Assembly (NCBI GenBank): GCA_018065895.1
Contig: JAGHSK010000030.1
Coordinates: forward strand, 1 to 57,760
Length of the DNA stretch: 57,760 bases
Direction of reading: 5' to 3'
Source: Candidatus Cacconaster equi
GTDB lineage: Bacteria; Bacteroidota; Bacteroidia; Bacteroidales; UBA932
Shown: piece by piece, positions 43,882 to 48,412 of the stretch
Numbering within the stretch: the stretch's first letter is position 1
Layout: each line of letters begins with the position of its first letter
Program-made: the position numbers and the translations under genes
The notes under the pieces: model-generated
Seen by the model: only the letters and a program-made list of their open reading frames with translations
Told to the model about the DNA's origin: nothing
Databases searched by the model: none

Positions 43882-44487
43882 TTATCTGTATTCGATGACC
43901 TCTTCCAGGTCGCGGAACGTAGTGTGCTTTTCAGAAGGAACGGAATCCTCTGACGGATAACCGAACGGAAGAAGAAGTACGGGGTGGATATTTGCCGGAA
44001 GGCTGAACTCCTTGTGCAGTTCCACCGGGTCGAAATATCCGACAAGGCAGGTGCCGATGCCGAGGTTGGCGGCTTCCAGAGTCATATGTGTCAGGACGAT
44101 GGATACGTCGATATCACCGTAGTTGCCATATTCCCCTCTTTTGCATACGTTGCGGTCATCGTAGCAGGCGATGAAGCAGTGAGGCGCACCGTACATGCAA
44201 GGCGAGACTCTGCGCAGCTTCTCCATACCTTCGGCGGATTTGACAACGTAGATTTTCTGTGGCTGGGAGTTGACGGCTGTCGGTGCAAGATGCCCGGCTT
44301 CAATGATCTTGTCGATGAGCTTCTGCTCAACGGCAGTCGAATCAAAGCTTCTTACGGAATATCTCTCCGATGCCAGCTGAAGGAAATCCTTGCTTGCATT
44401 CTCCCGGTTCACATTCTGTGGCTTCTGGCTGCATCCTGCCATCATCAGCAGTGCGGCTGAAAAAAGTATCAATGCTGTTCGTTTCAT
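43882..44487 (-). CDS. Nitroreductase family protein with lipoprotein signal
   Basis: A 201-residue flavoprotein of the nitroreductase family. The signal MKRTALILFSAALLMMAGC ends in a lipobox with C19, so it should be a lipoprotein outside the cytoplasm, which is unusual for a flavin reductase. The FMN motifs are ERYSVRSFDS and PTAVNSQPQKIYVV; LTHMTLEAANLGIGTCLVGY is the dimer-interface segment; PFGYPSE is near the end. A reading from 44523 would put 12 residues before the signal. It is divergent from the enoate reductase at 44601. Confidence 0.85.
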   Translation of the reverse strand: MKRTALILFSAALLMMAGCSQKPQNVNRENASKDFLQLASERYSVRSFDSTAVEQKLIDKIIEAGHLAPTAVNSQPQKIYVVKSAEGMEKLRRVSPCMYGAPHCFIACYDDRNVCKRGEYGNYGDIDVSIVLTHMTLEAANLGIGTCLVGYFDPVELHKEFSLPANIHPVLLLPFGYPSEDSVPSEKHTTFRDLEEVIEYR

Positions 44488-44520
44488 GGTTGGCTGTATG
44501 ATAATGGGGTTTGTGTTTTG

Positions 44521-44528
44521 CAAATTTA
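44521..44528 (-). promoter_or_regulatory. Nitroreductase promoter -7 box
   Basis: Minus-strand TAAATTTG fits TAnnTTTG, 33 bases before the nitroreductase ATG. No clear -33 TTTG. Confidence 0.5.
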
Positions 44529-44600: not shown

Positions 44601-46655
44601 ATGGACAAGAAATACGAAGCCCTGTTCACACCTTGGAAAATAGGCAATGTGGAGATAAAAAACCGCATTGTAATGACTTCTATGGGTGGTACATCCATTT
44701 TTGGATGGTTGGAACCCAATCATTTTGACAAGGAAGCGGCAAACTTCCTTCTGGAAAGAGCAAAGAACAACGTAGGTCTTATTTTGCCGGGGATCGCCCC
44801 TATAAAAGACATCATCCTCGGCAAATGGCTATATCAAGGGAAAGGAAAATTCAAGGAGCTCAAGGAATTCATGGAAGAGTTCCATAAGACCGGCGCCAAA
44901 CTTTTCATTCAGATGACAGCTGGCTTCGGAAGGAGTATGGCCATAAATGACATTATGGTGAAAGCTTGCAAGAACAAGGCGCTTGGCTTTGTCATGAAGC
45001 CCATACTTGATATGGATTACCTCACGGCTTCCGCTTCAGCTACTCCGAACAGATGGGAGGAAAGCTGTATGTCCCGTCCGTTGACTAAGAAGGAGATTGA
45101 CAAGATGGTTGAGGCCTTCGCCAAAACCGCCAAGCTTTGTATGGATGCAGGTGTGGACGGCGTTGAGATACATGCTGTGCACGAAGGCTATCTTCTGGAC
45201 CAATTCACGATGAAATATACCAATCTGCGTACGGACGAGTACGGCGGCAGTTTTGAGAACAGGTACAGATTCCCTGTCGAAATAGTGAAGGCAATCAAGA
45301 AGGTGTGCGGAAAGGATTTCCCGGTATCCCTGCGTTATTCGGTGGTTTCCAAGACCAAGGATTTCGGTAAAGGAGCAATGCCTGGCGAAGACTACGTGGA
45401 GGTGGGCCGCGATATGGAGGAGAGCGAGAGAGCTGCCAGATATCTGCAGGATGCGGGATATGATATGCTTAACTGCGACAACGGCACGTATGATGCCTGG
45501 TATTGGGCTCATCCGCCTATGTATATGCCTCAGAACTGTAATCTTGAGGATGTCAGCCATATAAAGAAATTTGTGGACATTCCTGTAGTGTGCGCCGGAC
45601 GAATGACTCCGGAGACAGCCGCCGAAGCCGTTGCTGCCGGCGGGATTGACGCAATGGGAGTCGCCCGCCAATTCCTCGCGGATCCACAGTGGGTGACAAA
45701 GCTCATGAATGACGACATTCCGTCAATACGCCCTTGTATCTGCTGTCACAATGCCTGCTTCAATATGGCTTCATATAAAGGTGTGGGCAACGATCAGAGC
45801 CTTTCCGACAATATGGGAATGGCACGTTGCGCCATCAACCCAACCACAATGCAGTCACGCAAATACAAAATTGTTCCTGCAAAAAAACAAAAGAAGGTGG
45901 CTGTCATCGGTGCCGGCATCGGTGGAATGGAGACGGCCAGAATACTTGCACTCAGAGGCCATAAACCTGTCATCTTTGAAAAATCAGACAGACTTGGCGG
46001 TGTGTTCAATTTCGCTGCGGCCCCATCGTTCAAGGAAAAAGACAGGGAACTGCTGAAATGGTATGCAAAGGAAATGGCTGATCTCAACATTGAGATTCAT
46101 TTCAATACGACGGTGCAGTCGATGGATGAACTTGCCGGATTCGACAATGTGGTAGTCGCTACCGGAGCAAAGGCCAACCGTCCTCCTATACCTGGTATTG
46201 AAAAGTCTATCGAGGCTTGTGAATACCTTGGCGGCGCCCCTACAGGGCAGAAAGTCATCATCGTCGGTGGAGGTCTATCCGGCTGTGAGATAGCTTATGA
46301 CCTCTATCTCCAGGGGAAAACCCCGGTCATTGTGGAGATGAAGAACGACCTTATCGCCGTCAAGGGAGTATGTCTGGCCAACAGCTCATATCTCAGGGAT
46401 TTCTTCGAACTCAACAAAGTGGAGGTGCATCTCGATACGAAACTCAAGGAATTCACGGACAAGGGAGTGTCAGTGGTTGACAAGGACGGGAAGGTATTCG
46501 AAATCGAAGGGGACACCGTAATCACCTCCATGGGATACAAACCTAAGCCTCTCTTCGACGGGAAGTGCAAGGTTCAGCTTGTCGGTGACTGCAATTCCGT
46601 TGGCAACTTGCGTACTGCCATCTGGCGTGCATGGGACGTTGCCATGAAAATATAA
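44601..46655 (+). CDS. Old-yellow-enzyme family iron-sulfur flavoprotein reductase (enoate reductase-like)
   Basis: A 684-residue enzyme of the 2-enoate reductase / 2,4-dienoyl-CoA reductase / BaiCD-BaiH type. The N-terminal TIM barrel (about 1-370) binds FMN; VEIHAVHEGYLLDQF and DEYGGSFENR are the active-site motifs. A 4Fe-4S cluster is expected at C379, C382, C386 and C410 (in CICCHNAC and MARCAINP). The C-terminal part has an FAD motif (GAGIGGMETAR, about 437-447) and an NAD(P)H motif (VGGGLSGCEIA). Such enzymes reduce activated C=C bonds in anaerobes. The bile-acid BaiCD family is only one possibility; the aconitase X genes starting 17 bases later suggest another substrate. Confidence 0.9.
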   Translation: MDKKYEALFTPWKIGNVEIKNRIVMTSMGGTSIFGWLEPNHFDKEAANFLLERAKNNVGLILPGIAPIKDIILGKWLYQGKGKFKELKEFMEEFHKTGAKLFIQMTAGFGRSMAINDIMVKACKNKALGFVMKPILDMDYLTASASATPNRWEESCMSRPLTKKEIDKMVEAFAKTAKLCMDAGVDGVEIHAVHEGYLLDQFTMKYTNLRTDEYGGSFENRYRFPVEIVKAIKKVCGKDFPVSLRYSVVSKTKDFGKGAMPGEDYVEVGRDMEESERAARYLQDAGYDMLNCDNGTYDAWYWAHPPMYMPQNCNLEDVSHIKKFVDIPVVCAGRMTPETAAEAVAAGGIDAMGVARQFLADPQWVTKLMNDDIPSIRPCICCHNACFNMASYKGVGNDQSLSDNMGMARCAINPTTMQSRKYKIVPAKKQKKVAVIGAGIGGMETARILALRGHKPVIFEKSDRLGGVFNFAAAPSFKEKDRELLKWYAKEMADLNIEIHFNTTVQSMDELAGFDNVVVATGAKANRPPIPGIEKSIEACEYLGGAPTGQKVIIVGGGLSGCEIAYDLYLQGKTPVIVEMKNDLIAVKGVCLANSSYLRDFFELNKVEVHLDTKLKEFTDKGVSVVDKDGKVFEIEGDTVITSMGYKPKPLFDGKCKVQLVGDCNSVGNLRTAIWRAWDVAMKI

Positions 46656-46672
46656 CGTTAAAAATTCTGATT

Positions 46673-47968
46673 ATGGCATATCAATATAAAATGAAGCTCA
46701 CGCCTGAACAGATAGATATTCTGGAAGGCAGACAAGGCGCCGTCAAGGCGAAGGTGATGGAGACTATTGTCAGATACGGCGATATGTTCGAAGCAACCGA
46801 ACTTGTTCCCGTAACCCACGGAGAAGGACATCTTGTTACATCCTTCGGCCTCTCACTTCTGAAGCCGGTTTACAGGATAATGGACGAATTGATCGATGCC
46901 GGGCTGAAGGTTGAGGCGGGTTTTACCGCCGATCCGCGTCCGCACGATATGAAGAACGTACATTACAATCCAATAGATAAACTTATCAATAAAAAGATAC
47001 TCTATGGCAAGCAGGATGCATACGAAGAACAACTCCGGAAACTAGGACTTAAAAACGATGATTCCTTCACCTGCACATGCTATTATCCTGAAATAGGCAA
47101 CGTTCCCGGAAAGGGTGATATACTCTCCTGGGCCGAGTCAAGTGCCGTGAATTATGCAAATTCAGTGCTTGGGGCCCGTTGCAACCGCAATTCCGGGATG
47201 ATTGAACTCTTCGGGTCCATTGTCGGGTTTGTTCCTAAGTTCGGTCTTCTGACTGACGAAGGGCGCAAGGCGAAGTGGAAAGTCACCGTAAATACAACCA
47301 AGAAACCGATTCCTCAAATCCTTGGATCGGCCATCGGCATCAAGGTGATGGAAGATGTTCCATATGTCGTGGGCCTTGACAAATGGATAGGAAATGAACT
47401 CACTGATCAGTGCAAGTCTTATCTCAAGGATTTCGGAGCTGCCACTGCATCCAACGGCGCGGTCGGACTATACCATATCGAGAATGTGACCCCTGAGGCA
47501 AAAGAACTTGGAGAGGCTCTTCTTGAAGCGGACTACAAGGAATACGTGATTGACGATGCCGAACTCGAGCGTGTTTACAAGTCATACCCTGTGATGTGGA
47601 AACAACCCCAGAAGGAGGGTACCATAGCATTCATAGGCTGTCCGCATTTGTCAAAAACCCAACTTGAAGAGTGGGCTGACAGGATAATATCCGGGCTCAA
47701 GTCTGCCGGAAAGACAAAGGTCGCGTGTCAGACTGTTCTTTGCACGCCGTCGCCTATAAGGAAAGAGTTTGAGAAAACCGCCAGATATGCCGAGCTCAGG
47801 AAGGCCGGTGTCGGTGTTACCTCAATCTGCCCGCTTATGTACACTTCAAATCCTCTTACGAAATCAAGAAGGATTATGACCTGTTCAAACAAACTTCGCA
47901 CATATTCACTGGCAAGGTATTACAAGGATGACGAACTTCTTGCCATCATAACCGGAAAGGAGGATTAG
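46673..47968 (+). CDS. Aconitase X large (catalytic) subunit
   Basis: A 431-residue member of the aconitase X family (DUF521). It has the family segments WAESSAVNYANSVLGARCNR (about 153-172), GCPHLS (C323) and ICPLMY (C386); with C136 in SFTCTCYYP these give the cysteines that usually bind an iron-sulfur cluster. Two positions are unusual: cysteine C170 where most relatives I recall have threonine (GARTNR), and C404 in TCSNK. Known aconitase X enzymes are cis-3-hydroxyproline dehydratase and the archaeal mevalonate 5-phosphate dehydratase. The start ATG at 46673 follows the reductase stop by 17 bases; a longer reading from 46631 lies inside that gene. The small subunit follows after three bases. 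Confidence 0.9.
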   Translation: MAYQYKMKLTPEQIDILEGRQGAVKAKVMETIVRYGDMFEATELVPVTHGEGHLVTSFGLSLLKPVYRIMDELIDAGLKVEAGFTADPRPHDMKNVHYNPIDKLINKKILYGKQDAYEEQLRKLGLKNDDSFTCTCYYPEIGNVPGKGDILSWAESSAVNYANSVLGARCNRNSGMIELFGSIVGFVPKFGLLTDEGRKAKWKVTVNTTKKPIPQILGSAIGIKVMEDVPYVVGLDKWIGNELTDQCKSYLKDFGAATASNGAVGLYHIENVTPEAKELGEALLEADYKEYVIDDAELERVYKSYPVMWKQPQKEGTIAFIGCPHLSKTQLEEWADRIISGLKSAGKTKVACQTVLCTPSPIRKEFEKTARYAELRKAGVGVTSICPLMYTSNPLTKSRRIMTCSNKLRTYSLARYYKDDELLAIITGKED

Positions 47969-47971
47969 ATT

Positions 47972-48412
47972 ATGAAAGAATTCAAAGGACGAGTACTCAA
48001 CGGCGGATATTTCAAGGGAGAAGCGGTGGTATCGCACCAGGGTGTGAACACTCTTGCAAGTTTTCAGAGTTCCGCTATCATGCATTCAAGCAAACTTGTA
48101 ATCGCGGATCAGAACAATCCGGACATATACAAGCATAACATCACCGGAAAGGCTCTCTGCCTTCCACAGACCATAGGCTCGACTACTGGCGGAATGGTCC
48201 TTCAGGTGATATGCTCGATGGGAATCAATCCTGCCTGCATGCTGTTCTCAGAGCATATCGACTCTCTGGCGGGTGCCGGAGTCATTCTCTCCGTAGTATG
48301 GGAGAACAGCAAGCTCATTGCAATAGACCAGCTTGGAGAGGAGTTCCTGGATACAGTCAAGACCGGAGACACCATCGAAGTGACAGAAGACGGAACAGTA
48401 AGGATTTTGTAA
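47972..48412 (+). CDS. Aconitase X small (swivel) subunit
   Basis: A 146-residue protein of the DUF126 type, the swivel domain of aconitase X. Motifs: GRVLNGGYFKGEAVVS at the start, NITGKALCLPQTIGSTTGGM with the probable catalytic serine (S70), and GDTIEVTEDGTVRIL at the end. In some organisms both domains are one protein; here they are separate genes three bases apart, as in archaea. It completes the dehydratase. The M28 peptidase gene follows 14 bases later. Confidence 0.9.
   Translation: MKEFKGRVLNGGYFKGEAVVSHQGVNTLASFQSSAIMHSSKLVIADQNNPDIYKHNITGKALCLPQTIGSTTGGMVLQVICSMGINPACMLFSEHIDSLAGAGVILSVVWENSKLIAIDQLGEEFLDTVKTGDTIEVTEDGTVRIL

Follow-up and report, generated by a model that had tools for sequence, protein, structure and literature searches.

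A candidate dehydration-reduction module combining aconitase X with an OYE-type reductase in Candidatus Cacconaster equi and other bacteria

The 57,760-nucleotide stretch of Candidatus Cacconaster equi analysed here (contig JAGHSK010000030.1, hereafter the window) carries three closely spaced genes, which encode a reductase of the OYE type and the large and small subunits of an aconitase X (AcnX). Comparison with other bacterial genomes shows that the pairing of AcnX with a reductase is not due to chance, and that the AcnX clade to which the window protein belongs adjoins at least three separate reductase lineages and, once, an FrdA/FrdB-like operon. Judging from these comparisons of genes and genomes, we consider it fairly probable that the AcnX dehydrates a free 3-hydroxy acid, that the resulting enoate is then reduced at the expense of nicotinamide nucleotides (NAD(P)H), and that both steps form a single, horizontally mobile module. 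The main argument for consecutive steps is that different C=C reductases have repeatedly been recruited beside one clade of dehydratases.

The reductase gene (44601-46655 (+), 684 amino acids, hereafter OYE-A or type A) has Pfam matches to Oxidored_FMN (2.2e-58) and Pyr_redox_2 (2e-31), and its product is of the enoate reductase, BaiCD and bilirubin-reductase-long type, with flavin mononucleotide (FMN), iron-sulfur and flavin adenine dinucleotide (FAD) cofactors. It is followed after 17 bases by the gene for the large, catalytic AcnX subunit (46673-47968 (+), 431 amino acids) and, after a further 3 bases, by that for the small (swivel) subunit (47972-48412 (+), 146 amino acids). Both AcnX domains exceed their family cut-offs, PF04412 with 2e-91 and 307 bits (cut-off 31.5) and the swivel domain PF01989 with 3.1e-9 and 37 bits (cut-off 27). 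The number of genes, the gaps and the families given in a previous sequence-only reading of the window agree with these coordinates and Pfam matches. In the window genome (G000; 1.65 Mb, 84% complete) this large subunit is the sole match to PF04412.

A scan of species genomes yielded at least 586 confirmed relatives of the large subunit, the best 80 of which were examined. An OYE-type gene is present on the same stretch in 38 of these 80 loci: type A in 31 (56-94% identity to the window reductase), and a second form, type B, in seven (29-30% to the window reductase, 61-88% to the first of themselves). Linked type A genes sit upstream, downstream or on the opposite strand, and are 1.6-2.2 kb off in two of the 31 cases. 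Where no reductase is linked, OYE-A is found elsewhere in the genome in 33 of 42 genomes (30 long and three partial matches). Similarly, within the family of the window organism type A is confined to the two genomes that carry AcnX, being absent from the other 197, and in the order of genome G229 (248 genomes) it occurs in 25 of the 28 AcnX genomes as opposed to 20 of the 220 without AcnX. The count of 28 omits G267 (30% identity) and G350 (a 36-residue match); the 45 type A genomes are those with at least 61% identity, which omits five genomes with relatives at 50-51% and two at 43-44%, none of the seven having AcnX, and the underlying search (cut-off 1e-120, at most four candidates scored per genome) can miss short fragments. 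Type B is present in four of the 248 genomes. Two of these (G366 and G448) are among the three AcnX genomes devoid of type A, and in both type B adjoins AcnX. In the other two, G350 and G469, the short G350 match is the only trace of AcnX. As a result, type A or type B is found in 27 of the 28 AcnX genomes of this order.

The diversity of the adjacent reductases became apparent from 20 further AcnX stretches of 19 genomes, which showed type A in five cases, type B-like genes in eight, a third form, type C (40% identical to the window reductase), in two, FrdA/FrdB-like genes in one and nothing in three, with one stretch ending too soon. Another five stretches had type B in two cases, a contig end in two and no reductase in one. 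In a reductase tree of 68 rows (quick search, type A rows thinned by script) types A, B and C stand apart, separated by reductases that do not lie beside AcnX; the sister of type C (L276) and the nearest sisters of type A (L277-L280) belong to genomes in which AcnX has no match. The AcnX tree comprised 151 rows, 129 of them different, and was likewise built by a quick search, with support from the Shimodaira-Hasegawa-like approximate likelihood ratio test (SH-aLRT) only and with program warnings about long branches and an outgroup that is not one clade. With states assigned by hand, the type of adjacent reductase changes at least seven times on this tree, as does the arrangement of type A.

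In the FrdA-like case (L242:3977-7350 (-)) the AcnX small-subunit gene is followed by genes for a small protein without Pfam match, an FrdA-like flavoprotein (FAD_binding_2, Succ_DH_flav_C) and an FrdB-like iron-sulfur subunit, also supported by Pfam, and there is no OYE-type reductase. The flavoprotein scores below the cut-offs of the NCBIfam models for succinate dehydrogenase, fumarate reductase and aspartate oxidase. Such an operon, and the 3-hydroxy-acid geometry of malate, which is suited to AcnX, could be taken to mean that AcnX serves as a substitute fumarase and the reductase as a soluble fumarate reductase, together leading from malate to succinate. This is very improbable in our opinion, as a class I fumarase match (PF05683) was found in 11 of the 16 genomes tested (class II was not searched). 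The window genome is one of the 11, and malate is for this reason an unlikely substrate there.

Type B reductases were also encountered in other surroundings. In G469, which has no AcnX match, a type B gene heads a same-strand run (L287:891-8597 (-)) that further encodes a ParA-like ATPase, a pair of HGD-D proteins and an acyl-CoA (CoA, coenzyme A) dehydratase activase, the HGD-D proteins and the activase being above the cut-off. This run hints at a possible replacement of the dehydratase by a system resembling 2-hydroxyacyl-CoA dehydratase, and at no more than that because HGD-D spans both dehydratases and reductases. At L285:1778-6102 a type B reductase gene and a gene that matches aldehyde ferredoxin oxidoreductase below the cut-off are divergently oriented, next to genes that by eye resemble MoaD and MoeB. 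A relative of the reductase (42%) lies on an Enterococcus raffinosus plasmid, where the annotated neighbouring genes include no AcnX.

Several observations weigh against consecutive steps in a single module. Neither reductase type is present on 42 of the 80 stretches, although 11 of these 42 have less than 1 kb on one side; the expectation of the sequence-only reading that the genes be kept together in relatives is in the main borne out, by the 38 linked loci and by the co-occurrence in 33 of 42 and 25 of 28 genomes. OYE-A is lacking in nine of the 42 AcnX genomes searched for it (the genomes being incomplete), and the association of type A with AcnX in the order of G229 (Fisher p 6e-19) was found among kin, so that the p value overstates independence. 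The 20 genomes of that order with OYE-A and without AcnX imply that the reductase has other sources of enoates or another job. The FrdA-like arrangement was seen in one genome, with no second among the fetched loci. On the stretches of the clade's outlying members, in Rhodococcus (L084, 47%) and in G550 and G513 (41-42%), an OYE-type gene is missing (the search did not extend to their whole genomes), and the partnership may therefore have arisen within the clade. Finally, the neighbours examined revealed neither a transporter nor a regulator nor an upstream enzyme that would be peculiar to the pair: the 72 operon-like neighbours listed, 30 of which were run through Pfam, are heterogeneous and include a single MFS transporter but no enzyme that recurs. 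This absence would also fit a substrate that is made internally.

Some of these points, namely the solitary OYE-A genes, the 33 AcnX genomes in which it is unlinked and the outliers without a reductase neighbour, would also be expected if both enzymes merely shared a pathway or regulon without acting in succession, the reductase for example clearing a toxic enoate or reducing another intermediate. We regard this as unlikely, since the occurrence of three reductase lineages and an FrdA-like operon beside one AcnX clade is hard to explain unless the product of AcnX is reduced.

As for the AcnX itself, profiles of both subunits match solved members of the family (large subunit, E-values 4e-51 and 5e-29; small subunit, 3e-10). 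Residues of the large subunit are numbered as alignment profile position plus one, which was checked on the cysteines. The cluster cysteines C134, C323 and C386 are retained, together with E155, S156, S157, K407 and Y411 and, in the small subunit, S70, the proposed catalytic base, and T71, which T72 follows; the columns of the catalytic Ser, Glu, Lys and Tyr and of the iron-sulfur cysteines are invariant or nearly so across the aligned AcnX. The roles assigned to these residues are those described in parts of PMC8184944 and PMC10040528. By contrast, residues typical of the hydroxyproline type are replaced (Asp203 by Val55, Ile206 by Phe58 and Trp35 by Leu28 of the small subunit), and so are those of the mevalonate-5-phosphate type (Asn79 by Asp87 and Ser50 by Phe58); Asn233 of the solved members falls at the Asp87 position too. 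For the Val55-Phe58 loop, where the Thermococcus and Agrobacterium alignments disagree by two columns, we used the latter and the structural equivalences in the part of PMC8184944 consulted.

The cofactor of the AcnX is likelier to be a [4Fe-4S] than a [2Fe-2S] cluster, because the second cysteine of the CxC pair of the Agrobacterium enzyme (Cys510) corresponds to Leu388 in the window protein and the cysteine site of type IIb is occupied. C134, C323 and C386 match the set of three cysteine ligands of the [4Fe-4S] cluster in mevalonate 5-phosphate dehydratase, and the presence of such a cluster in the type IIb enzyme of Aeropyrum is described in part of PMC10040528. Directly after Asp87 come R89 and D92 in a DPRPxD stretch (46931-46948 (+)), which starts at the Asn79/Asn233 position of solved members. 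Together with the FrdA-like case these residues weakly suggest that the substrate bears a second group of acidic or polar nature, and our guess would be a small acid of this kind.

These data bear on whether the window AcnX has one of the functions already known in its family, namely dehydration of cis-3-hydroxyproline or of mevalonate 5-phosphate, the gene beside it being there incidentally. Family-level similarity, including a match of 133 bits to the NCBIfam model of cis-3-hydroxyproline dehydratase, is consistent with such a function, but 133 bits is far under the 700-bit cut-off, and the window clade stands on a long stem apart from the references for both substrates (SH-aLRT 100 in the quick tree). 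Moreover, the marker residues Asp203, Trp35 and Ile206 for hydroxyproline and Asn79 and Ser50 for mevalonate 5-phosphate, as given in part of PMC8184944, are not retained, and linkage and co-occurrence argue against an incidental neighbour, so that this explanation is barely credible. The substrate is probably neither cis-3-hydroxy-L-proline nor mevalonate 5-phosphate. Tight grouping with a characterised cis-3-hydroxyproline dehydratase, which the sequence-only reading had named as evidence against its proposal, is not seen in the tree, and the specificity residues are absent as well.

The reductase displays the features of three-cofactor OYE-type 2-enoate reductases, i.e. an FMN barrel, a cysteine cluster and an FAD/NAD(P) domain. 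The barrel (amino acids 8-369; 44622-45707 (+)) is delimited by Pfam and holds the invariant motif H191-A-V-H-E-G-Y197. The cysteines C379, C382, C386 and C410 (45735-45830 (+)) are invariant in the 27 aligned reductases and are the probable ligands of a 4Fe-4S cluster, as is usual in the family. The window enzyme may likewise reduce free 2-enoates with NADH, as in the three-cofactor class. The best NCBIfam models, BaiCD (330 bits, cut-off 825) and bilirubin reductase long form (347 bits, cut-off 750), are not reached, and no enoate reductase model is among the NCBIfam matches shown. In the PDB the reductase profile has two matches at 1e-60 or better, 2-naphthoyl-CoA reductase (6qkg) and 2,4-dienoyl-CoA reductase (1ps9).

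The module might also run in reverse, with the flavoenzyme converting a saturated acid into the enoate by oxidation and AcnX then adding water to yield a 3-hydroxy acid, as a CoA-free start of an oxidation. This course would draw on the presence of trimethylamine dehydrogenase and histamine dehydrogenase among the PDB relatives of the reductase, and on the reversibility of AcnX, phosphomevalonate dehydratase having been assayed as hydration according to part of PMC10040528. Both of the close PDB matches, however, are reductases, and many hosts are of gut or rumen origin by title, which makes an anaerobic life probable. As the redox potentials of enoate/saturated couples are well above that of NAD+/NADH, oxidation with NAD+ would be uphill. 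On balance we find the reverse course quite improbable.

Dehydration followed by reduction could proceed as follows. An AcnX heterodimer with a [4Fe-4S] cluster bound by three cysteines would act on a free 3-hydroxy carboxylic acid, with Ser70 of the small subunit taking the alpha proton and the beta hydroxyl leaving bound to the free iron, aided by Glu155 and Lys407; the product would be a 2-enoate, formed without CoA activation. In the reductase, electrons from NAD(P)H would pass through FAD and the 4Fe-4S cluster to FMN and to the enoate, giving the saturated acid, so that the predicted net reaction is 3-hydroxy acid + NAD(P)H -> saturated acid + NAD(P)+ + water. Reduction would draw the dehydration along and provide a fermenter with an outlet for electrons, and the reductase would be replaceable by others within the mobile cassette. 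We infer the succession of the steps, the reducing direction, the use of NADH and the role as an electron sink, the direction because of general redox considerations and the likely anaerobic lifestyle. A wider scenario is more tentative, and we see it as possible though somewhat short of an even chance: the module would be a CoA-free fermentative electron sink transferred among anaerobic Bacillota, Spirochaetota and a few horse-gut Bacteroidota, in which the AcnX clade takes water from a 3-hydroxy acid not recognised so far, possibly a dicarboxylic one, three OYE lineages or once an FrdA-like complex finish the conversion, and in one genome the dehydratase has seemingly been replaced by a 2-hydroxyacyl-CoA-dehydratase-like system.

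AcnX of the window type occurs in two of the 199 genomes of the window family and two of the 40 of the window genus. By their titles, the best 80 relatives are all from metagenome-assembled genomes (MAGs) or uncultured organisms and comprise five Bacteroidota, four Spirochaetota, one without phylum and otherwise Bacillota; many titles name gut or rumen as the origin, the others giving no source, and all five Bacteroidota bear horse-derived isolate names or species epithets. The identical order of three genes is present in five other Bacteroidales loci and in MAGs of Treponema, Lachnospiraceae and Christensenellaceae. The identity of the large subunit amounts to 76-85% in the Treponema and Cryptobacteroides relatives. 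On the AcnX tree the window protein falls inside sets of 16 and 17 rows (SH-aLRT 97 and 100) with Christensenellaceae, Treponema and Lachnospiraceae, and at least three changes of phylum are seen (states assigned by hand). Given this mixed-phylum grouping, the cassette has probably crossed phyla by horizontal transfer.

For five genes flanking the window cassette no match was seen on the stretches of L003, L004, L005, L006 and L009, where the trio is kept (L003, from G188, and L009 look like one genome, as their AcnX rows are identical). Downstream of the cassette the window has an M28 peptidase gene (Pfam). Of the 40 genomes in the genus, 34 contain a match to it, and in 27 of these the identity reaches at least 59%; in G188 the cassette is located on a different contig from the best M28 match. 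No clean empty site was found, and none of the other window flanks occurs beside M28 on 14 short stretches from other genomes. Upstream and divergent lies a gene (43882-44523 (-)) for a nitroreductase-family protein, whose N-terminus resembles a lipoprotein signal.

Among further neighbours, a cluster resembling, by eye, an ABC-transporter ATPase recurs in 16 of 123 loci and is adjacent in L075, L179, L181 and L183, which we take as the background of a very common family. In horse-gut Bacteroidales a PanE/ApbA-family gene (Pfam assignment made on the L004 protein) overlaps the small-subunit gene (L004:9736-10740 (+)) or begins one base after it (L005:5926-6930 (+)); its cluster mate in L006 is convergent, and the association is not general. 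An apparent fusion of the large and small subunits in L016 proved to be an artefact of extension past a stop. Isolated stretches of about 35 codons resembling the N-terminus of the AcnX large subunit (L286:1587-1688 and G289:C1:304454-304558) may be remnants or due to chance.

Through its partner, an uncharacterised AcnX clade gains a testable chemistry, as its product should be an enoate accepted by a reductase that can be cloned. The coupled pair also makes the search for the substrate practical, because activity is readable as loss of NADH. If the proposed succession is true, the module adds to anaerobic fermentation a product not yet assigned to it.

The closest characterised systems differ from the window module in several respects. 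With phosphomevalonate dehydratase (type IIb; Thermococcus, 7cnr/7cns, and Aeropyrum) the window AcnX has in common the two subunits, the three cluster cysteines, the Glu, Ser, Lys and Tyr residues and the Ser-Thr of the small subunit; it differs in its separate clade, in Asp87, Phe58 and the DPRPxD stretch and in having a reductase partner. It is of the same family as cis-3-hydroxyproline dehydratase and retains the general acid/base residues, but has Val55, small-subunit Leu28, Phe58 and Leu388 in place of Asp203, Trp35, Ile206 and Cys510. Unlike the loci of S. meliloti and Sulfitobacter, it lies outside a hydroxyproline cluster: in these two annotated clusters AcnX stands beside genes of the epimerase/racemase family and for an FAD oxidoreductase, in agreement with the earlier remark that AcnX enzymes of known substrate lack a partner such as the one found here.

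More similar are the bacterial AcnX types IIc-IIf, whose function is unassigned according to parts of PMC8184944 and PMC10040528; as described there they are bacterial enzymes of two subunits in which the marker residues for both known substrates are lacking, and the window clade most likely belongs among these types, taken together. A reductase partnership is not mentioned for them in the portions of both papers that were checked, and no description of AcnX paired with an OYE-type reductase was found in the literature as far as titles, the starts of abstracts and passages reveal. Different AcnX genes occur in other company. On the Sporomusa termitida plasmid pSPTER (L259) the small-subunit gene comes first, by genes for an electron-transfer flavoprotein and two acyl-CoA dehydrogenases, and a gene for an FAD oxidoreductase is in the vicinity; this might be a further partnership of a dehydratase with flavoenzymes. 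On the Paroceanicella profunda plasmid pD4M1B (L085) the AcnX pair is immediately preceded by genes with the annotations dihydroxy-acid dehydratase and FAD-dependent oxidoreductase, and a TRAP transporter with C4-dicarboxylates as annotated substrates is close by. The surroundings of these two loci and of that of Rhodococcus opacus (47%) settle no substrate.

BaiCD, the long form of bilirubin reductase and enoate reductase share domain order and cofactor set with the window reductase, which is far under the cut-offs of the first two and an equivalog of neither. In its logic of dehydrating and then reducing, the module resembles the routes of 2-hydroxyacyl-CoA dehydratase and enoate reductase, which constitute the reductive branch of Stickland-type fermentation. 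There, radical chemistry acts on 2-hydroxyacyl-CoA, whereas the window module would use aconitase-type chemistry on a free acid. Both families, AcnX and reductase, are already known, and what is new is a clade without characterised member in a probable two-enzyme module.

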